A program made the position numbers and the translations under genes. This document shows positions 1,426 through 57,404 of a stretch of DNA of 64,000 nucleotides, one piece after another (position 1 is the first letter of the stretch; the number at the start of each line of letters is the position of its first letter). Origin of the DNA: Medicago truncatula (taxonomy: Eukaryota; Streptophyta; Magnoliopsida; Fabales; Fabaceae); the NCBI RefSeq assembly GCF_003473485.1, contig NC_053042.1:6905501-6969500 (forward strand). Direction: 5' to 3'. Below the pieces are notes generated by a model. The model did not search any database. It saw only the letters and a program-made list of their open reading frames with translations, and was not told the DNA's origin.

Positions 1426-4070
1426 TTTGCTTCTTCAAAACCAGCAGGCACAATGTTGCATCTTTGATAAACATCAGAAAGTAATCTTGTGCCTCTGACA
1501 GGAACGTCATCTACCATTTCATTTTCCCAATCTTCAATGTTTTCATCAATTTTTTCTAAGGTAGGAACCTGGAGTTTTGGAAATTACCTCCATCTCATTT
1601 GTGTCATCCCAGTTCCACTCTTCATCTTCTATAAAATGCACATCTCTACTTACAATAATTTTACCATTTTATGGCTGGAAAATTTTTATAAGCTTTTGCA
1701 ATGGAGTTGTAGCCAATAAAAATGCCTGGAAGAGCTCTTCTGTCTAGTTTATCTCTCTTGATTTTTGGAACATGAGTAAAGCACAGACATCCAAATATTT
1801 TAAGGAAATTCAGGGAGGGTTTATAACCATACCAAGCCTCAAATGGTGTCTTATCCTTTATTGCTCTTGTAGGAAGCCTATTTTGCAAATAAACAGCAGT
1901 GTTTGTCGATTCCGCCCAAAATTGCTTTGGCAAGTTCTTCTCATGCAGCATACATCGGGTCATCTCCAATATAAATCCGTTTCTTCTTTCACTAACTCAA
2001 TTTTGTTGTGGAGTGTATGGAACAATCAATTGATGATTAATGCCAGCGTCATCACAGAATCGATCAAATGCTTCAGAAGTATACTCTTTGTCATTGTCTG
2101 ATCTGAGAGCTTGAATTTTACAACCACTTTCATTCTCCACTCTTGCTTTGAATTTCCAAAATACTTGTGCCACCTCTGACTTGTGCTTCAGAAAGAAAAT
2201 CCAACACATACAGGTAAAATCATCAATGAATATAGCATAATAAAGACTGTCATTCAAAGAAGATGTTCTTTGTGGGCCTGCAATGTCAGTATGAATTAAT
2301 TGCAACTTTTTTGTTGCTCTCCAAGTTGTCTTTGGAAATGGCTTCCTGCTTTGCTTTCCAAACTTACAAGTCTTGCAATTTGAAATATGGTCATCAAGTT
2401 CTGGAATGTCATTTGCCATCTCCTTGGATTTCAATTGCAGCAAACCTTGATGATTATAATGCCCGAGCCTTTTGTGCCATAAGTTTGTGATATTTTCTTT
2501 CATTTGAAAAGCAATTTGCTCTTCCTCCAACGGATTTAGAGCAAAACTTTTTCCTCTCATTTTTACTTTGAAAATGTCTTTGCCATCACTATCTTTAATC
2601 AAGCAGCTTTCATTTTCGAACAACACTTTATAACCTCTTTCAAGTAATTGCCCAACACTTAACAAATTCTGATCAATTTCAGGGACGTACAACACATCAG
2701 AAGTTAACTTTGTACCCGAATAGGTTGAGATTGCTATTGTTCCTTTTCCTTTCACAGCAATGTAATTGCCATTTCCAACCCGAACTTTTGTTGAGTTTGC
2801 ATTGGTTAGTTCCCTGAGCAAATCCTTATTATGTGTCATGTGGTTGGTACAACCACTATCAATCAGCCAATTCTCACTTGATTCGATGCTAGAGAAACAT
2901 GTTGCAACGAATAAGTGATCCTCCTCTTCCTCTTGATCAACAACCTTTGCCTCATCATTATGTTGTTGATTCCTATTTTTACAAATAACAGCTTCATGCC
3001 CCATTTGATTACACTTGGTACACTTAGCATCAGGTCTTCTCCAACATCTAAAGGGTGGATGACCTTTCTTTCCACAGTGTTGACGTGGAGGATAAGATTT
3101 TCTTCGAATTGCATTCTTTTCTGTTGCATTGGCTGATGTTGAGCCCACATTCTGCTACCTGGCTGCTAATGCTCCTTCAAGTGTTGTTTCCTCTCTCATC
3201 AATCTTCTCTGTTCTTGTGCCTTCAATGCATTAAGCAATTCTGCCAAAGAAATTTTTGAGAAATCTTTGGTATTCTCCAAAGTAGTGATGGTTGCTTCAT
3301 ATCTTTCGGGTACAGTTACAAGAATTTTTTCAACAATTCTTGAGTCGGAGAATTCCCGAATAATAATGAGAAGTTTGTAATATTGAGAAGTTTGTCAGAG
3401 TAATCTTGAATCATCTCAAAATCCTTCATTCTTTGAAGTTCAAATTCCCGAATCAGGTTCAGGACTTGCATGCCTTTAATTCTTTCATCACCTTCATATT
3501 CTTTCTTGAGATAATCCCATATATCCTTTGCTGATTTCAAGGACATGATTCTTGTGAAAATAGTGGTTGAGACAGCAGCAAACAAGCAGGCCTTTGCCTT
3601 TGCCTTCTTTGTCTTTTTTTCCTTTTGCATTTTTATTTGTGTCATTGTGGGATTGTTTGGAAGTACAGGAATTTCATAATCTTCTTCCACTGCTTCCCAC
3701 AAATCCAAAGCTTCCAAATATGCCTCCATACGCACTGCCCAAAGTTGGTAGTTGCTTCCGTTGAACACCCGTTGAAGCGATGCCGGAGAGACTTGCTTCG
3801 GTTTCCATGACGCTAAACTCACACAGATCCCTTAGAATAGGGCTCTAGATACCAATTGTTGTTAATTGAACAAGAAACGGTTGCAGAAAATGAACAAGAC
3901 AAAGGAGAAATAACTGCTTTCATTCATATAATTGGTCTGATAATACAAACTGAACATACACACCTCTTTTACATAGTTTAGCAATACTAAAACTTCCAAT
4001 AACTACCACAATACAACACAATTAATTAATAAAAATTGTACAACAGTTACTAAAATAAAAACAGACAACA
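1426..4070 (-). mobile_element. Ty1/copia retrotransposon relic, incomplete
   Basis: Read on the minus strand, parts occur in the usual copia order. A 5' LTR lies at about 3857-4070 (TGTTGT...ACAACA ends). A primer-binding site resembling the initiator-tRNA-Met type lies at about 3841-3856. A UBN2-type Gag lies at about 3822-3316. A CCHC zinc knuckle, an aspartic protease with a WLIDSGCTNHMT motif, the GAG-pre-integrase and the integrase core lie at about 3148-1997, with more integrase at about 1969-1661. Reverse transcriptase, RNase H and the 3' LTR are absent because the element stops near 1425 against a different repeat. It is a fossil with a few breaks and is not complete. Confidence 0.85.
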
Positions 4071-4582
4071 CACACATCAGCAGTCCTAAGCATGATATTT
4101 AACAGATTTGATGCAACAATACTAAATTTATTGCTTTGCTGCCAAGACATAGGAAAAGGAAAAAATACACAAAAGAATGCGCAACTGCAAATTATCAAGA
4201 AAATGTATTTAGAATGACAGTTTCAGCACAAATTACAGGTCGTGTGTTGTGATTGATTATAGAGGATATTGTGACAGGCAAGGATGGATTGTTCTTGTGT
4301 ATGTAATGATAATTATGACAGTATTACAACATAATGGATAAAAAATTGTTGAATTTTTTTTTAAGTTTCATGATCTATTAAACCTGTCCTCCAATGCATC
4401 GATCCCTTTGTTATAAAACCATAGCAGTTCTTTATAAATCAAAAGGCAATAAATAATAATGAAGGTTCTTTCTTAATAAGACAGACCAACACAGACCTAT
4501 AGCTAACACTATCAATTCATATGCATAAGCATAAGTATGACAGGGCATATACTTACTTGACTAAAATAAATAAATATATCTT

Positions 4583-4729: not shown

Positions 4730-5804
4730 TCATACTTCAATAGAAGTTTGAGATTCGCTATGCAGGTTTCCTTGATCTTCATACGAAGTCAGCAGCTGTC
4801 CAACCTTTCCTCCAAAAACTCGATCGCCATCCTTCCAAAAACCACGTCTGCAACAAGTCCACTCAACCGGTCCAATGTTGTACTTTTTAGCCCACCCGCT
4901 TTGATCCATAATCCAAATTTCCAACTGGATAGGACTAGGAAGATGATACTCCAAAACATAAGCAAGTGAACCCTTGATCTCGGCAATGTTTTCAATAGAA
5001 TGTTCAACAGCAATACGCGGAGCTTTGAGTTCGTGAAACTGATTGTTGCGAAAGTCAAAACAAAGAATGTTTGAAATAGTAAAAAAATTAACGGCTGTAA
5101 TCCAATAATAAACGCAGTTAACAACCGGTGTATAAGCAGGATTATAATGAATTGTGATCCAGTTAAAAGGAGGAGGATGGACAGGGGTCCATGACTGAAT
5201 AAAATTCTGCTCCCGAAGCATAAAGCATCGGCTTCCCTACGACAACGTCATGTTGAAGTCTAACAACTTTGAAATTATTTATATCCTTAAAGGCACAAAA
5301 ACCATACAAGGAATCATCATATTTAGATCAGAGAATGAGGGTGCAGGAGGGGATACGGTGAACTTGTTTAACTGTTGGGTTCCATAGAATCAAGTGACCA
5401 AGATTTGTTGAATGCCAATAAAAAGCTTTTAAAAAGAAAACACCATTGCAATTGCCATATGATTCAATCTTGAGTATGGTTTTATTGTTAGCAGGAAAGA
5501 GGGAGTAGAAGCAGATGCGCTCCACCTCCTCATGGTCGAGGTCGTCACAGGAGAGAAGAGCGATATAGGGAGGTCTGAATTCAATGGGTCTGGGAATGAT
5601 CATGAGACTATGGCCTTTACGGTTTTCAGAATTGTGCAGTTTCCACCTATTCACAAAATATGGAGTTTTGAAAAGAATGTTCCAAGATTTTTCAACAGAT
5701 TTGAAACGCATCAATGATTTTACCGGTAGATGAAATAGTATCTCTATCTGTAAATCTGAGTTTAAACTCGACCAGTTCATTCTCTCTGCACACAAATCCA
5801 TCAC
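4730..5804 (-). pseudogene. F-box protein with F-box-associated domain, broken copy
   Basis: Plant F-box proteins of this type bind SKP1 through the N-terminal F-box and recruit targets to SCF ubiquitin ligases. The first reading frame starts at 5804. An F-box lies at about residues 12-58 (LNSDLQIEILFHLPVKSLMRFKSV), followed by the start of an F-box-associated interaction domain (ILWNPTVKQVHRIP). The frame is closed by TGA at 5328-5330. The same frame continues recognisably after it (YDDSLYGFCAF...DINNFKVVRL) to about 5200. There it must shift by one to join the downstream frame 5221-4730, which carries the rest of the associated domain (ILCFDFRNNQFHELKAP). With one stop and one frameshift in a gene family that is normally intronless, I call a pseudogene. 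A cryptic intron removing both lesions is a less likely alternative. Confidence 0.8.
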
Positions 5805-6728
5805 AAATTGGATACTAGGGTTACGAGCAAGAGGTAGAGAACCAAAGTTTTATTTGTTTTTTTGGTAACAAAAGGGGGAGCAGATTCCCTCCTGTGAAAA
5901 CTTTCTCCAGTTTTCTACCGTTTAAATCTAAACCATTAAATACATTATCTCTCTTCATTTTGACATTTAATTTCTATTTAATTCCTCACATGTATTTATC
6001 ATTTAATGGCTAGGATTCCACCGGACTCTCCATTTTACCCCGGGGTCCAATTATATAAGAGATAAACACCAACGGAAGATTAATGAGACTAATTTTAATA
6101 AGTGAATTTTACTAATAATTGTCGAATTTGTCCAAAAAAAAAAACTAATAATCGTCGAATTATTTATTTATAACCATTCGACAATAAATGGATGGTACAA
6201 GGTTTGAACTTTGTCCCATGAACTTATCTCATTTGTTAAGAACAATGCAAAATGAGAAATCATATTTGTACAAACATTTTATGATAATTTTTTCACAACT
6301 CTCTCTTTTATATACTCACATTATGTTTTTATTATCTCTCTTCTTTTTTCTCTCTCCATTGTTTTTGACCAATAAAAAGAGAGAAAAAGAAAGTTGTCAT
6401 GATAGTTGTCAAAAATAGTTGTTCAAATATCAGTACTCATGCAAAATATATGTAAAGTTTGAAGTTCGACCCCGAAGAAAAAAAAGTTTTTAACTTTGAA
6501 CTCAAACAACAAAGTTATTTTTTAAGGAAAAATGGCAGAATTATCAACTAAATATAAAAACCCTTCAAGAAAAACTAAATATAAAAATTTATTTATACAC
6601 ACAATTCTCACGTGTCTCTAGATTATTGTTTTTTTCCAAAATTTTGGATTTTCAAATTCAGTCTTGATTTTCTCACATTTTAGAATTCGGACTAGTCATG
6701 TTTAGTTTATGGTTTAAACATTTGATTT
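5805..6728. other. AT-rich spacer, no gene seen
   Basis: This is the upstream flank of the F-box relic. It has poly-A/T runs and short ORF shadows only. I see no splice-supported exon, RNA gene or clear repeat boundary. Confidence 0.6.
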
Positions 6729-6830: not shown

Positions 6831-7721
6831 TTTTTTTTTTTGGTTACAGAGGCAAAATTACAAAAAGGAAACAAAAACAGAAGAAAAAAAAACAAACAAG
6901 AGACAGACGACTAGGCCCTATAGAAGAAAGTGCATGATGTGTCGCTCCTAATCAGCGCCAACAAGTCTTCTTGAGGCGAATGATGCACTTTGAAAACATC
7001 GTCAGTGGCTGCTCCCATCTTCGCCAAAAAATCAGCACAATAGTTGCCCTCTCTTAGAGTATGATGAAGAGTAAAATTGCGGTTGCTCAGCAGGTCCTTG
7101 ATGTCTTGAAGGAGGACAGCGAAGGTGTGAAACTTCAGAGTGTTTACCGTGATAAGGTTGATGGAGAGGAGGGAGTCTAAATAACAAACCAGGTCATTTA
7201 TTCCCATATCAATAGCCAAGTTCAAACCATGGTAAATTGCAGTGAGCTCCGCCAAAAGGATGCCATTAGAATTGGCGATGTGACCGGAAAAACTGGATAG
7301 GTAAAAACCATGGTTGTTTCTAATGAAACCACCGAAACCAGCTCGAATGGGAGTACCTAAACAACTTCCGTCCACATTAAGGATTGAACCTGAGTGATTC
7401 TGACAGTTCCATTTAACCAACCGCTCCAGAATAGCAGTTCTATCACTTTGTTGAAAAGTCTTAATAATTCCATTAGTCGAATTATGAATGTTATTGGTAA
7501 TGCGGAACAGGGACCATGTTTCGTTGTTAAGGCACATCAAGTTACGGTGACGCCATATCCACCAAAGGGCAGCAAGGAAACACGCACCACGAGAGCTAGT
7601 AGCAACGACATTTACCCAACTGTGAACATTTTGTTCAGAGAAAAAATGAGTATCCGTAAAACCTGTTTTTTGCCAAACATTCTTAGAGAAACTGCAGTCT
7701 CGTAAACAGTGCAAAAGTGTT
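6831..7721 (-). mobile_element. 5'-truncated L1-type LINE, RNase H 3' end, with target duplication
   Basis: The 15-base sequence TTTTGAAATGAGTTT lies on the right at 7722-7736. The left flank (6817-6831) carries the same word running into a T-run at 6829-6841, which is the minus-strand poly(A) tail. That defines one insertion of about 0.9 kb. The open frame enters at the truncated 5' end with the last part of the zinc-binding RT domain (HCLRDCSFSKNVW) and continues to a stop at 6911. It covers a full RNase H-like domain with an NVDGS motif, the AELTAIYHGL helix, a CYLDS motif and HTLREGNYCADFLAKMG near the end. These are the normal landmarks of the C-terminal RNase H of plant LINEs. The frame is uninterrupted and the duplication exact, so the insertion looks fairly recent. 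Upstream residues in the open frame (7722-7807) belong to the flank. Confidence 0.9.
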
Positions 7722-7736
7722 TTTTGAAATGAGTTT

Positions 7737-8636
7737 AAACATTTACTAACTTTTGTTTTATCGTTTTTAATACCTCTTAAAACCAAAAAAAAAAAACACC
7801 AAATCACCTACAATCATTTGCTTTTCATCAAACTCACCTCTAATCCATCACATTTTTTAAGTTTTGAAGATTTAATCAATAGTTTAGTACAACTCTGCCT
7901 ATATTAATTTATTAGTTACTCTTCATCACTTTCTTTTGGTAAATTTGATCTCATTGATCTTTTTTTGGGAGAGAAGATCTTATCTATCTATTGTACTCTA
8001 AACAAAATTGAGTGTTTCGGTACTCTCAAATGTTTGATCAATAAAAGAGCGACATTTCAATTAAATGATCCATGTCAGCATTATTAGAGATTGACAGTAT
8101 TGGTACGTTTGTCTATTCAATTTAACCCCCATGGATTGGACAAATTATTTATTCAGTAATTAATTATTATTTTTTAATTAAAACTAAACAAAATCATCAA
8201 CCGCCATCACAATTTCCTCTTCATCATCTAAACCTTTTTGGGAACACAAAAGTTCATCTATACCAATTTAGTTTCTCACATCTTTAAACAAAACTTCATT
8301 TAATTAATAGCATTAATTCTTTCTCACTATGGTACTACGTTGCTTCGATTCTTTCTCTCCATCAATTTCACTTGAAATGCTGGTACAAAGGAGAAGAAGA
8401 ATTGCAATCAACGAGAAAAAGCTGAATGGAGTTAATTAAATAATTATATCATAAAATAAAAGTCTCAAAGTGCAAAATTCACAAGTTTGGTAGTGCTAAA
8501 TCTGCAATCCAGTCAAACTTACTTGTTCCATGCTGTCAGAAAACTATTGGTCACTTTGGTTTGGAGTATCGATACATATATATATTCAGGTGTACGGTAG
8601 AAGGCGCCAAAAATATGGGATGAAAGTAAATATATC
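7737..8636. other. AT-rich spacer, nothing recognised
   Basis: Only simple A/T runs and short frames are visible. No RNA gene, exon or terminal repeats were recognised. Confidence 0.55.
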
Positions 8637-9203: not shown

Positions 9204-9539
9204 TTAAGTAAATATTATCTAACTTTAAAAATATTTGACGAATCAAGTATTTGAGTTCAAGTAATTAATAAATTTCATCAAATGACGAGATGAATCAAGT
9301 TTAATTCTTTATTTTTTTTTTAAGAAAATGAAGTTTAATTCTTAAATAAAATAATTGTTTTATAGACTTTCCTTACTTCACGTATAAACCATGAATTAAT
9401 TCCTTACTTCGCATGCAAACTATGAATTAATAATAGAAAAAATCTCGGTCAAAAAAACCATATATAAGAGAATAAATAAACAAATTTTTGTACCAAAAAA
9501 AACAAACAATAATTGTGTCAAAATATTAAAATAAACAAC

Positions 9540-9700
9540 AATGATACGACAACGTTTAGTATAGGTTAGAACGACGCCGAAAGCTTATAAAACGGCAACG
9601 AAATTCCACAATAGAGCGCCGCTGCACCAAAGCCCAATCCCAAACCCTAATTTCCTCTCACCCCTTATATATACTCCCTCGCTTCACTCACAAATTTCAT
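9540..9700 (+). promoter_or_regulatory. Promoter of the snoRNA cluster: site II, telo box, TATA
   Basis: AGCCCA at 9631-9636 is a site II element (TGGGCT on the other strand). The telo box AAACCCTAA lies at 9642-9650, and a TATA box TTATATATA at 9665-9673. In plants this combination is characteristic of ribosomal protein genes and snoRNA gene clusters. The start site is expected about 30 bases past the TATA, near 9695-9705. A second AAACCCTAG lies in the leader at 9799-9807. Seven C/D snoRNAs follow and no protein gene does, which supports a dedicated Pol II promoter. Confidence 0.75.
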
Positions 9701-10011
9701 CTTCTCATATCACCCTTGTTCTCAAATCTCATTCCTACTGCATTTTTTCTATCATTCTCTTTACTTATTTACGGTTACTCCAATTAGTTTATTTTTCGAA
9801 ACCCTAGATTCAATTTTTTCGATTCTTCATGAAATTCGATTATCAATTGAATTTGTGCATCTGTTTACCCTCTTCAGATCCAAAACGGTAGACTTACCAG
9901 CTCATTGCACAAAAAACTTTAAAAAATTGCAATGGGTCAAATGGATCTACCGAAATCCAAATCAAAAACCCTTTTTTCCGTCAAATTTGTTTTTTTTTTT
10001 TTATGAGGAAA

Positions 10012-10102
10012 GTATATGGCAAATGATGATTAATTTTAACGCTTATTGATATACTGAATAACAAGTGTTGACAAAAACCTCTGACTAACTGATGCCATAT
10101 AC
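10012..10102 (+). ncRNA. C/D-box snoRNA 1, double guide (25S and 18S)
   Basis: A perfect 10-bp terminal stem (10012-10021 with 10093-10102) closes the RNA. Box C ATGATGA is at 10023-10029, box D' CTGA at 10054-10057, a C'-like GTGTTGA near 10065, and box D CTGA at 10089-10092. The guide before D' is complementary to ATATCAATAAGCG near the 5' end of plant 25S rRNA. The D'+5 rule points to the U of CAUAU, about U44 in my numbering. The guide before D is complementary to TAGTCAGAGGT of plant 18S rRNA, pointing to the U of UAGUC. rRNA sequences are from memory, so the residue numbers are approximate. Role: 2'-O-methylation guide in the nucleolus with fibrillarin, NOP56 and NOP58. Confidence 0.9.
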
Positions 10103-10179
10103 ATTTCCTCAATCTTTTAATGTTTTGTTGATTTTTTTTTTCTTCCTGTTTTTGTGTTTTAACGTTGTTGGTTTGTATA

Positions 10180-10269
10180 AGGGTTGGTAAATGATGTTAA
10201 AAATTTGTCATTCTATAGACTGATGTTTTGATGAACAAAAACTCCGCTTATTATCTGATGCCTTCCCTG
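10180..10269 (+). ncRNA. C/D-box snoRNA 2, guide for 25S near U48
   Basis: Box C ATGATGT is at 10191-10197, D' CTGA at 10220-10223, C' TGATGA at 10229-10234, and box D CTGA at 10255-10258. The outer stem AGGG..GG (10180-10187) pairs with CC..CCCT (10261-10268), with a small internal mismatch. The guide before D is complementary to AATAAGCGGAG of 25S rRNA. Its +5 position is the U of CAAUAAG, about U48, four bases from the site predicted for snoRNA 1. I recall 25S Um48 as a known plant methylation, but I cannot check it here. The D' guide has no target I recognise. Confidence 0.85.
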
Positions 10270-10367
10270 TATTAGTTTTATTAGTTTGAAATTAATCTGT
10301 GTATGTTTATCTGTATGTTTTTTAATTGGTATGATAAATGTGAGATTTTTGTGTAATTGTTTATTTG

Positions 10368-10461
10368 TTTGATCAATGATGTTGAAAAGCAGACGGGCGG
10401 ACTGAAATGATGCCATGTTGATTGTCTGCCATTTCCAACTTTGGAATGTCTGAGATTCAAT
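10368..10461 (+). ncRNA. U43: C/D-box snoRNA 3, U43 homologue
   Basis: Box C ATGATGT is at 10376-10382, D' CTGA at 10402-10405, C' TGATTG at 10418-10423, and box D CTGA at 10450-10453. A short bulged stem joins 10368-10374 to 10454-10460. The guide GACGGGCGG just before D', and the following TGATTGTC, match the layout of U43 (SNORD43) of animals and plants. The guide pairs with CCGCCCGUC near the 3' end of 18S rRNA, and the +5 rule marks the first C after the G, the known U43 methylation site. The D-box guide has no target I recognise. Confidence 0.88.
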
Positions 10462-10532
10462 TCAATTCAGTTATGAATTTTATTTCTATATGATTCATTC
10501 TGTGTTTTGAAATGTTTTAGTGAAATTGTATT

Positions 10533-10618
10533 GATACTGCTATGATGATGTTGCACCAATTATGTCTGGACATATGAAGTTTTATTGTGATATAATTTGC
10601 TACTTTCTGAGCAGTATT
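10533..10618 (+). ncRNA. C/D-box snoRNA 4
   Basis: A 7-bp perfect terminal stem (ATACTGC 10534-10540 with GCAGTAT 10611-10617) encloses the RNA. Box C ATGATGA is at 10542-10548, a degenerate D' CTGG at 10566-10569, a C'-like ATGAAG next to it, and box D CTGA at 10607-10610. The D guide could pair with AGTAGCAAAT, a word I recall from 25S rRNA, but this assignment is tentative. The structure alone makes the snoRNA call strong. Confidence 0.87.
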
Positions 10619-10660
10619 ATTACATTTAATCATTTGTGTTTTTTATTTTTTATTTTAATT

Positions 10661-10750
10661 GGCCAAATGATGAATCTTTCAAATCATTGAGACTTAAACA
10701 CTGATTTGAGTTCTGTGAATATTTTATTTGAATAGGAAGATCTGATGCCT
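10661..10750 (+). ncRNA. C/D-box snoRNA 5, target unknown
   Basis: Box C ATGATGA is at 10667-10673, D' CTGA at 10701-10704, and box D CTGA at 10742-10745. Only a short terminal pairing is seen (GGC 10661-10663 with GCC 10747-10749). Size and position fit the regular spacing of its neighbours. Neither guide (before D' or D) matches an rRNA stretch I recognise, so it may be an orphan guide or target a less familiar rRNA or snRNA site. Confidence 0.68.
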
Positions 10751-10860
10751 TGAAACATTAATTTTGTACACCCATTTCGTATTATTTTTTTTAATATTTT
10801 TCTTCAAATGTTTCTGCAATTGTATTTTTAATAATGTAAATTTATTATTTCTGTTACAAT

Positions 10861-10949
10861 GTAGTCTATGATGCATACTTTGTATATGGTTCAGAAATGC
10901 AAGATATTGCATTTGTTGAAAACTTTGAACTAGGACGGTCTGAGGCTAC
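10861..10949 (+). ncRNA. C/D-box snoRNA 6, guide for 18S ACCGUCCUAGU
   Basis: The terminal stem GTAGTC (10861-10866) pairs with GGCTAC (10944-10949) through one G-U pair. Box C ATGATGC is at 10868-10874 and box D CTGA at 10940-10943. The 11 bases before box D are complementary to ACCGTCCTAGT of plant 18S rRNA, and the +5 rule predicts methylation of the U in ACCGU. The internal D'/C' boxes are weak, so this looks like a single-guide RNA. Confidence 0.86.
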
Positions 10950-11025
10950 TAAAATTCATTTTCAACAACTGGTCTTTGTTAACTGTTTTTGAGTAATAAA
11001 TTTATTTTTATGAATTAAGCAATTA

Positions 11026-11106
11026 TGTGGATGATGAGAATAAATTTTTACAGTTATCCCTGTCTGATACTGCAGTGCAGGTGCTGAAAATTTGTAATCT
11101 GACACT
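11026..11106 (+). ncRNA. C/D-box snoRNA 7, guide for 25S ACAGGGAUAACUG
   Basis: Box C ATGATGA is at 11031-11037, D' CTGA at 11064-11067, C'-like TGCTGA at 11082-11087, and box D CTGA at 11099-11102. The terminal stem is short (GTG/CAC). The guide before D' is complementary over 13 bases to ACAGGGATAACTG, a highly conserved part of 25S domain V by the peptidyl-transferase centre. The +5 rule marks the second G of GGG. The D guide is unassigned. It is the last snoRNA of the cluster. Confidence 0.82.
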
Positions 11107-11886
11107 TGTTTGTTCAATTTTATCAATTGATAGTTATATGTTTATTTGTTGTCTTACAATGTTGGCTTTGTTCGCTAGGTTATTATTTTCATGCATTTTG
11201 ATTGTAGCATAAGCACTACTTTAGGACATAATTTATGCCATACAATGAAAACATATGCTAATGTTCCACCAAGAGAAACCCCAAAAATGAGATTGACACA
11301 TCTTCACTCAAAATCTGTTGTATATTGGCCATTTCACATTCATGTTTCTCAATATATACTTTTACTTTCAATGTAAGTTTAACTCACATTACACATCAAC
11401 ACAAGTGCTCCAGATGAGTTTAGAATTGCACATTCTTTGCTAACTGACTGTTCTGATCCGGTCTTCCCATTGGAAGAGAGTCCAGATGCGTAACCGATGT
11501 AGAGAACTTGGGTTTAATGGATATGCAGCAGAGGGTGACAAATTTACCGTGTTCCTTTATGTTTCTGTTTTTTGTTTTGAGCCAACCATGTAAGTGGATA
11601 CAATTGACAAAATACGGTGTTTCTTTATGTTTGTGTATTTTTTTTAATCAGTGTCAATCGTATAAGATAAGAGTAATGAAATTTGCACATGGATTTTGGG
11701 ACAACTCGGTCATTTCACATTTGTTATTTAGGAAGGGCATCTGGGTCATTTCACATTTGATCATGATTCTTATATCGTCGCCGTTTTGATGAATAGAACA
11801 TGTCCAACTAAGTTGCATATATTGCCCGACGATATTCGACACAGACAATCCCTTTTGTATCTCACCGAATGGGTTAATGGAGCTGT
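11107..11886. other. Downstream flank of the snoRNA cluster
   Basis: This probably contains the 3' end of the polycistronic precursor. I see no further box C/box D pair with a closing stem and no convincing protein exon. The ORFs here are short and lack homology. Confidence 0.5.
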
Positions 11887-13345
11887 TAAAAATGGGCTGG
11901 GCTAATGGCCCATTAGCCCGCATAATGGTCGGGCGGGACTAGCCCATTGAGCTTCGGGCCGGTCCAGTATCAATATTTCTATTTGATTTTTTGTTAAAAA
12001 ACACTAAAAAAAATTTGAAAAAATTATCAACTGATTTTAAAAATGGATGAATATAGCTCAAAGTTTTAAAATTCTAAATTTATGAATTTTGAAGGAATTG
12101 ATGTAGTATCAAAAGTAAATATGTTTTTATATCGTCTCCTTGTGGATTATCATTTTAAGTTAGGGATTGATTGATTGTTTATTGTAAAAATTTATAATTA
12201 AGATACGGTAATAAAAACAGCGTTATGATTAGAGTTTGTTAATCAAGCTTCGAATGTTATTCTAGCCCGACAACATCATTCATGTCTAAATAATATTGTG
12301 AGATTAATCGTATCGTTTAATCGATGATTTCTCAATCTATTAAAGGATTTGATAGTAATATGTTCCAATGCTTTGTGTGATTAGAATCATCGTTTTCACA
12401 TATAATCTTTGAAACGTGGTCTCTGGAACTACTTCTCGCCCTCTTGCTTGCCTTTCCGTTGCTGTGGCGAAATCTCGCTCTTTGTGTCGCCATGGCGAGC
12501 TGGATGCTGACATTATGGAAGTACTTATCGCCGTGGCAACTTGGCTCGCTCGGGCGAGTTTTCCTTTGTGATTCTTTCAAGTTTTCTTTCTTTGATTCTT
12601 GTCTTGTTCACTCATTTCCTGCACAATTGGGTCAAGTAAGACATAAAAAGCATAATAAGGCATTTTCTTGCATTTTCATAGCTTTTCCATGAATAACTTG
12701 TGAAACAAGTAATCAAAAGTGCTTAATATATACTCCCTCCATCCTAATTTATAAGAAAAAAACACTAATTCACATTTATTAAAAAACTAATAATTAGTGA
12801 TTTGAGGTATGATTTTTTGTGTTCTCCTTGAAATAAGTTTCATGGAAAGTAAAAATAATTCTCATTGGTTAAAAATTATGGAGAAAATAAAAAGGATAAC
12901 GCATTGAATGCAATTTGCATTTAATTTTAGATTGGAAAAGATGATTTGTTAGAAAAAAACATAATAATAGCATAAAAAGTCTTTTTTGCTTATATTTTGA
13001 GACAAAGAATATGATAATTTTTTGCTTATATTTTAGGACGGAGGGAGTATCCAATTACTACTTCTAGCACTTATAGGAATAAATCTAGAAATTAAAAATT
13101 ATTTACACTTCTATGTCCATCCGATCATATTTTAGCAAAAAGATAGTTGTGACCAACTAATATATAAAAAAATATATTAAAAAAATGAATAAATTTTAAA
13201 AAAAAATAAAAACTAAAACGGACCGGGGACGGGTTGGTCCATGACCCACACAGATCAGACTGGTCTCTAACATATGTGGCTCAGTTACAAATGGGTTGGC
13301 CCGTTTATGTAGTCGGGCAGGGCCGGACCAACCCATTTGACACCT
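11887..13345. mobile_element. Degenerate hAT-like element with GGGC-rich ends
   Basis: The left end (GCTGTTAAAAATGGGCTGGGC, about 11,882-11,902) resembles the reverse complement of the right end (ATGGGTTGGCCC..., closing at TTTGACACCTCTA near 13,348). Both ends are rich in GGGC/GCCC words, typical of a plant hAT MITE family whose termini read (T)AGRGGTGTCAAA. The flanks agree at only 5 of 8 bases, so the copy is old. A Stowaway-like element is nested inside at 12,733-13,047. No transposase frame was seen. Confidence 0.5.
12733..13047. mobile_element. Stowaway-like MITE, 315 bp, TA target duplication
   Basis: The ends CTCCCTCCATCCTAATTTATA (left) and TATATTTTAGGACGGAGGGAG (right) are inverted repeats of about 20 bases. 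The dinucleotide TA flanks both sides (12,731-12,732 and 13,048-13,049). The CTCCCTCCGTCC terminus is a classic Stowaway/mariner MITE signature in plants. The interior is AT-rich and non-coding. It sits inside the degenerate hAT-like element, so it inserted later. Confidence 0.85.
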
Positions 13346-57091: not shown

Positions 57092-57404
57092 AGAGACCTC
57101 TACATTTTAATTAATTAAGTGAATAACAATATTGTGAGTAAAAATTATCAAACCAACTAATGAAGTTTGACTCAACTGCTGAGGTGTGACTCACTCAATA
57201 AACACGGGTTTAACTACCACTCCTAACATGCATATCTTTTTGGTAGGTGACTAGAACCCAACTCATCTAAATTTTTATTTAAGCAAAATAAAAAATTGAA
57301 TCACATCACATCGGTCACTCGTGCTTGCCACACTAATATATATTAGTGGGTGCAGAAAGTGTTTCTTACATTAAAAAAAGAAAGTATTTTATAGGTATCA
57401 TATT

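Follow-up and report, generated by a model that had tools for sequence, protein, structure and literature searches.

Polycistronic genes for small nucleolar RNAs (snoRNAs) that carry a telo box and a site II element are well known in plants, as the excerpts of PMC4660826 and PMC9175010 make clear, and the first of these describes both motifs upstream of the TATA box. A snoR16-U43 cluster is listed in the excerpted text of PMC5122169, which surveys snoRNA families across plants, for Arabidopsis (snoR16.1-U43.1) and for rice (cluster 66, U43a-snoR16), where U43a is also called restricted to the BOP clade. Here we describe seven box C/D snoRNA units, all on the plus strand, read from the sequence of a 64-kb stretch of Medicago truncatula (contig NC_053042.1, positions 6,905,501 to 6,969,500), which we refer to as the window and whose positions are used throughout. 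Like the plant genes in those excerpts, this cluster has both motifs before a TATA box and several snoRNAs on one strand, and we see no fundamental difference between them. As in Arabidopsis and rice, snoR16 and U43 lie in one cluster; in the window, five more units surround the pair, by which alone the Arabidopsis cluster was compared. The two are adjacent here (units 2 and 3), snoR16 being recognized by Rfam and U43 by its guide to C1645 of 18S ribosomal RNA (rRNA), and this predicted U43 beside snoR16 in a legume extends the arrangement listed for Arabidopsis and rice. The suggestion, made in an earlier sequence-only reading, that the combination of members might be new is therefore weak, since its snoR16-U43 core already appears in the excerpt of PMC5122169. 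We conclude that the cluster is real, well supported and ordinary in kind.

We propose, with a probability of roughly 0.93, that the locus is a polycistronic RNA polymerase II gene of seven box C/D snoRNAs, whose expression is predicted. That proposal, a polycistronic gene with its own promoter, had been made by the sequence-only reading and is supported at the level of sequence by Rfam models, a box scan with a shuffle control, constraint relative to a paralogue, guide matches, promoter motifs and the lack of protein domains in the open reading frames (ORFs) tested.

The boxes themselves are regular. Box C starts at 10023, 10191, 10376, 10542, 10667, 10868 and 11031 in units 1 to 7, and reads ATGATGA in four units, ATGATGT in two and ATGATGC in one. 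Box D is CTGA in all seven, starting at 10089, 10255, 10450, 10607, 10742, 10940 and 11099. The span from box C to box D is 68-79 bases in every unit, which places all of them within the box C/D arrangement (RUGAUGA and CUGA, 60-90 nucleotides apart). The claimed series in a single orientation was confirmed for all seven units, with box-C-to-box-C intervals of 168, 185, 166, 125, 201 and 163 bases (range 125-201). D' boxes with an assigned guide are CTGA at 10054, 10402 and 11064 and ATGA at 10574, which is a partial count of D' boxes.

When the whole window was compared with Rfam at the curated cut-offs, five RNA matches were obtained, all of them C/D snoRNAs inside the claimed stretch. Unit 1 (10012-10102), closed by a perfect 10-bp stem, matches the snoR16 family RF00296 with 48.8 bits (cut-off 45) over 10015-10099, and unit 2, snoR16 (10183-10265), matches the same family over its full extent with 61.8 bits. 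Further matches were found for unit 5, snoR64 (10661-10749; RF01163, snoR64a, 45.3 bits, cut-off 45, match at 10671-10748), unit 6, snoR20 (10861-10949; RF01193, snoR20a, 45.5 bits, match at 10864-10946), and unit 7, snoR38 (11027-11105; RF00213, 65.9 bits, match at 11023-11109). The remaining two were recognized otherwise: unit 3 (10369-10460), a U43-type snoRNA, by the box scan and its guide to 18S C1645, and unit 4 (10534-10617) by its boxes, a perfect 7-bp closing stem and two possible guides. No Rfam match beyond these units was seen in the cluster at E up to 1, and ARAGORN found no tRNA in the window.

When both strands of the 64 kb were scanned for box C and box D closed by a short stem, eight box-C starts were found within 10000-11120, which cover all seven units (unit 4 contributes two overlapping box C sequences), and three candidates in the remainder of the window. 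In 2000 dinucleotide shuffles of the cluster region, the mean was 0.15 candidates and the maximum 3. The covariance-model and scanner check proposed beforehand was thereby carried out, with Rfam reaching its cut-off in five of seven units and the box scan recovering all seven.

Upstream of the units, a motif scan located the three elements that had been announced there: a site II element on the minus strand (TGGGCT, AGCCCA on the plus strand; 9631-9636; TGGGCY as defined in the excerpt of PMC4660826), a telo box, AAACCCTAA, on the plus strand (9642-9650) and a plus-strand TATA box, TATATATA (9666-9673). They lie 346-381 bases upstream of unit 1. The leader, presumably transcribed from about the position expected from the TATA box, would extend over 9700-10011 on the plus strand and contains a second telo box at 9799. 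Promoter and leader together (query 9500-10010) match only themselves in the assembly. The window has two places where TATAWA is preceded, at 10-120 bases, by both a telo box and a site II element: this promoter and one near 57393 on the minus strand. Searches with Pfam (E up to 0.01) found no domain in the seven ORFs tested of the 15 listed that overlap 9560-12692, in agreement, as far as these seven go, with the earlier claim that no protein gene is involved. To the same extent, the locus has the make-up of a polycistronic snoRNA gene, with several snoRNAs on one strand, a single telo box/site II/TATA promoter and a position outside protein genes.

A DNA search of the assembly revealed a paralogous cluster on the same chromosome, about 3 Mb away (C1:3855084-3856095), in which the unit order is kept; sequence comparison extends it, on the minus strand, to about C1:3855084-3857261. 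All seven units are represented there, in the order of the window, together with the same kind of promoter motifs and three additional snoRNAs at the 5' end; of the seven, units 3, 4 and 5 are broken. Units 1, 2, 4, 6 and 7 are 82-99% identical between the two clusters (83/85 aligned columns for unit 1, 76/88 for unit 2, 76/86 for unit 4, 71/87 for unit 6 and 80/81 for unit 7, the broken unit 4 being included in this comparison), and the six spacers 20-61% (50/83, 61/109, 51/83, 23/53, 22/112 and 43/106). Constraint appears to act on the units rather than on the spacers. Homology begins at the closing stem of unit 1. As for a possible common origin of the two promoters, their best local alignment reaches a score of 28, compared with at most 27 over 300 shuffles, and is largely made up of the motifs that they share. 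A larger segmental duplication was considered and rejected: comparison of the window with C1:3825001-3885000 (partly masked) returned the cluster and four short DNA matches of 58-221 bases. In six frames, the same comparison gave one ORF pair inside the cluster and otherwise matches to two adjacent ORFs and one opposite-strand pair; judged by their letters, the two adjacent ORFs look like retroelement pieces.

To predict methylation sites, we took the rRNA base paired to the fifth nucleotide before box D or D'. Since no exact 5' end of 25S rRNA was found in the assembly, the target letters came from three sources: a 25S fragment of the same genome (L015), eukaryotic large subunit (LSU) rRNA in eight contigs of bacterial metagenome-assembled genome (MAG) records (L017-L024), and an 18S stretch in a viral-collection contig (L013). 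The first is a decayed copy in the nuclear genome at C2:5028566-5028645 and around (1480-1900 of L015). A eukaryotic LSU word is present in each of the eight MAG contigs, and 18S words in several; these contigs look like contamination. In L013 (IMGVR_UViG_3300029287_000002), the 18S stretch (about 3785-4543) follows phage-looking sequence, and the contig is, by eye, possibly a chimera. Neither a 111-base query nor a 30-base exact pattern found intact ribosomal DNA in the genome itself; very common words were skipped in these searches, so its absence is unproven. Against these rRNA sequences, guides were found for units 1, 2, 3, 4 (D'), 5 and 7, and in part for unit 6 and the D guide of unit 4, for which we also relied on plant rRNA as we take it to read.

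The D' guide of unit 1 (10040-10052) forms a 13-bp duplex with L015 that would place the methylated base at 25S U44, and the D guide of unit 2 (10243-10252) a 10-bp duplex that would place it at U48, both numbered from what we assume to be the 5' end of plant 25S. The two target bases are four apart in L015, as they are in the excerpt of PMC8053127. Unit 1 scores above the snoR16 cut-off of RF00296, yet its guide leads to U44 and not to U48, the target that defines snoR16. Because units 1 and 2 can be aligned over most of their length (an alignment made without control), they are probably tandem relatives, with guides that are now directed at sites four bases from each other. Unit 1 would be best treated as a diverged snoR16 relative that shares its target with Arabidopsis SnoR120. 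For the D guide of unit 1 and the D' guide of unit 2, no target was placed (in Arabidopsis, 25S U2456 is the site given to SnoR16.1).

Unit 3 pairs through its D' guide (10392-10400) over 9 bp with the 18S C1645 region in all five contigs that hold this region. The D' guide of unit 4 (10559-10571) forms 12-13 bp, with one G-U pair, with 18S in L013 and L024. Counting in L024 gives 1215 for this site and 1641 for the equivalent of C1645; therefore the target is C1219 in Arabidopsis numbering, if there is no indel between them. For the D guide of unit 4 (10595-10605), L020 has an 8-bp match near where 25S U803 is expected; this target otherwise draws on plant 25S as we assume it to be and is possible, though less certain. 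The D guide of unit 5 (10732-10740) predicts 25S U2884: its duplex with CTCTTCCTAT is 9 bp long in L019, L021, L022 and L024, and 8 bp are formed in L017 and L020. Unit 7 forms a 13-bp duplex through its D' guide (11051-11063) in all eight eukaryotic LSU contigs, predicting 25S G2816. In L017, L020, L022 and L024, and not in L019 and L021, the site of unit 5 follows that of unit 7 at a distance of exactly 68 bases, as U2884 follows G2816; among the best two matches listed, no unit 5 site was present in L018 and L023. The D guide of unit 6 (10929-10939) would address 18S U1013, the U of CGTCGTAG being counted at 1009 in L024, that is, at U1013.

All eight predicted sites are present in the Arabidopsis methylation list of Wu et al. 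(Table 1 of PMC8053127, as excerpted), where the 25S positions are assigned to SnoR120 (U44), SnoR16 (U48), SnoR64 (U2884), SnoR38Y (G2816) and SnoR14 (U803), and the 18S positions to U43 (C1645), SnoR166 (C1219) and SnoR20.1 (U1013). The excerpted text of the same paper treats U803 as a low-score site and there ascribes it to SnoR30. A SNORD72-like Arabidopsis RNA is proposed to methylate 18S position 1219, written G1219, in the excerpt of PMC7464842; unit 4 weakly resembles SNORD72 (29.8 bits). In all, the boxes, their order, the promoter motifs, the constraint on units and guide complementarity for six units can be read from the DNA.

At least some of the guides appear to have no second source in the genome. 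A search of the 430-Mb assembly for the exact pattern of box C plus the U43 guide, which would miss a diverged U43, gave one match, in the window, and none for the reversed pattern. A DNA query with unit 3 returned the window and, in the paralogue, its 3' half only. The snoR64 model run over the assembly recovered the window copy only, with 30.4 bits; the single-copy statement is weaker for snoR64 because this score is below the cut-off and 71 of 83238 first-look candidates were scored.

Unit 4 has a further copy of 68 bases and 97% identity at C5:43101987-43102054 (3988-4055 of L006; also L033). This copy keeps box C, stops just before box D, continues into an A-rich tract and lies between 13-base direct repeats, TTTTGCTATTTAC. 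It is likely a retroposed, 3'-shortened and A-tailed snoRNA. Mature C/D snoRNAs begin 4-7 bases before box C, and the 5' end that we infer for the copy lies 4-7 bases before its box C. Part of the 13-base repeat may be coincidence, because the 5' flank of the copy is also somewhat similar to the native flank of unit 4. As judged from its structure, the copy is indirect evidence for the past presence of a unit 4 RNA in the germ line. Among the literature matches listed, no title dealt with plant snoRNA retrocopies, from which we claim no absence. Other unit-4-like patterns at C1:32277134 and C3:56395703 have no CTGA in the next 100 bases and no Rfam match at the cut-off, and were taken as chance; a third lies on C8, and the reversed pattern gave two matches.

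Several points weigh against the proposed gene. The statement that most units have closing stems holds for units 1 and 4; for the other five, which have only 2-4 Watson-Crick pairs (G-U pairs excluded from the count), 'most' was too strong. Rfam gives nothing for unit 3 at E up to 1 and only matches below the cut-off for unit 4 (SNORD91, 30.5 bits; SNORD72, 29.8 bits), and unit 5 barely reaches the cut-off (45.3 versus 45) in the window search and falls below it, at 30.4 bits, in the genome search. With no exact 25S 5' end found in the assembly, the targets rest on protist rRNA, the decayed 25S fragment or plant rRNA as we take it to read. The D' duplex of unit 4 occurs in two of the five contigs with 18S, being missing from L017, L019 and L020, and the longest matches of its D guide for U803 fall where 25S could not be placed. 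Finally, L024 has CGTCGTAG where the guide of unit 6 requires CGTCCTAG, which is what we take the plant 18S to have.

Two other explanations were weighed. The snoRNAs could be intronic in a coding or non-coding host gene, in which case splicing, and not the cutting of a precursor of their own, would release them. Plants do have snoRNA clusters within introns, and the leader of about 300 bases before unit 1 could contain a non-coding exon; the promoter elements directly upstream of the cluster and the lack of a Pfam domain in the seven ORFs tested of the 15 listed speak against such a host, as does the paralogue, with which no upstream exon is shared because homology starts only at the closing stem of unit 1. 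We consider a host intron very improbable. Still less probable, in our estimate, is that the window cluster is a decaying duplicate of the other cluster and has lost expression. It does lack the three 5' snoRNAs of its paralogue; against decay, box C and box D are kept in all seven of its units while units 3, 4 and 5 are broken in the other copy, its promoter motifs are present, and no place other than the window was found for U43 and snoR64.

For the favored polycistronic gene, we propose transcription, from the telo box/site II/TATA promoter at about 9630-9675, of a single precursor across the seven snoRNAs, in the order U44-guide, snoR16, U43, C1219-guide, snoR64, snoR20 and snoR38. The precursor would be cut between the units and each snoRNA trimmed to its box C/D core; the trimmed snoRNAs would then assemble with fibrillarin and guide 2'-O-methylation of rRNA. 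Predicted sites, in Arabidopsis numbering, are 25S U44, U48, U2884 and G2816 and 18S C1645, C1219 and U1013, with 25S U803 as a possible addition. Transcription, processing and methylation at the locus are thus what we infer from its sequence. Farther upstream in the window, pieces of an F-box gene with F-box and F-box-associated domains (4730-5849, minus strand) and a reverse-transcriptase-like/RNase H fragment (6914-7807, minus strand) were also observed.

An annotation based on ORFs would leave this region blank, as the sequence-only reading had pointed out. For at least two guides, among them that for 18S C1645, no place other than the window locus was found in the assembly, and such single-copy guides would allow clean knock-out tests. 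Together with its paralogue, the locus shows within one genome how the members of a polycistronic snoRNA gene may be divided between two copies once it has been duplicated.
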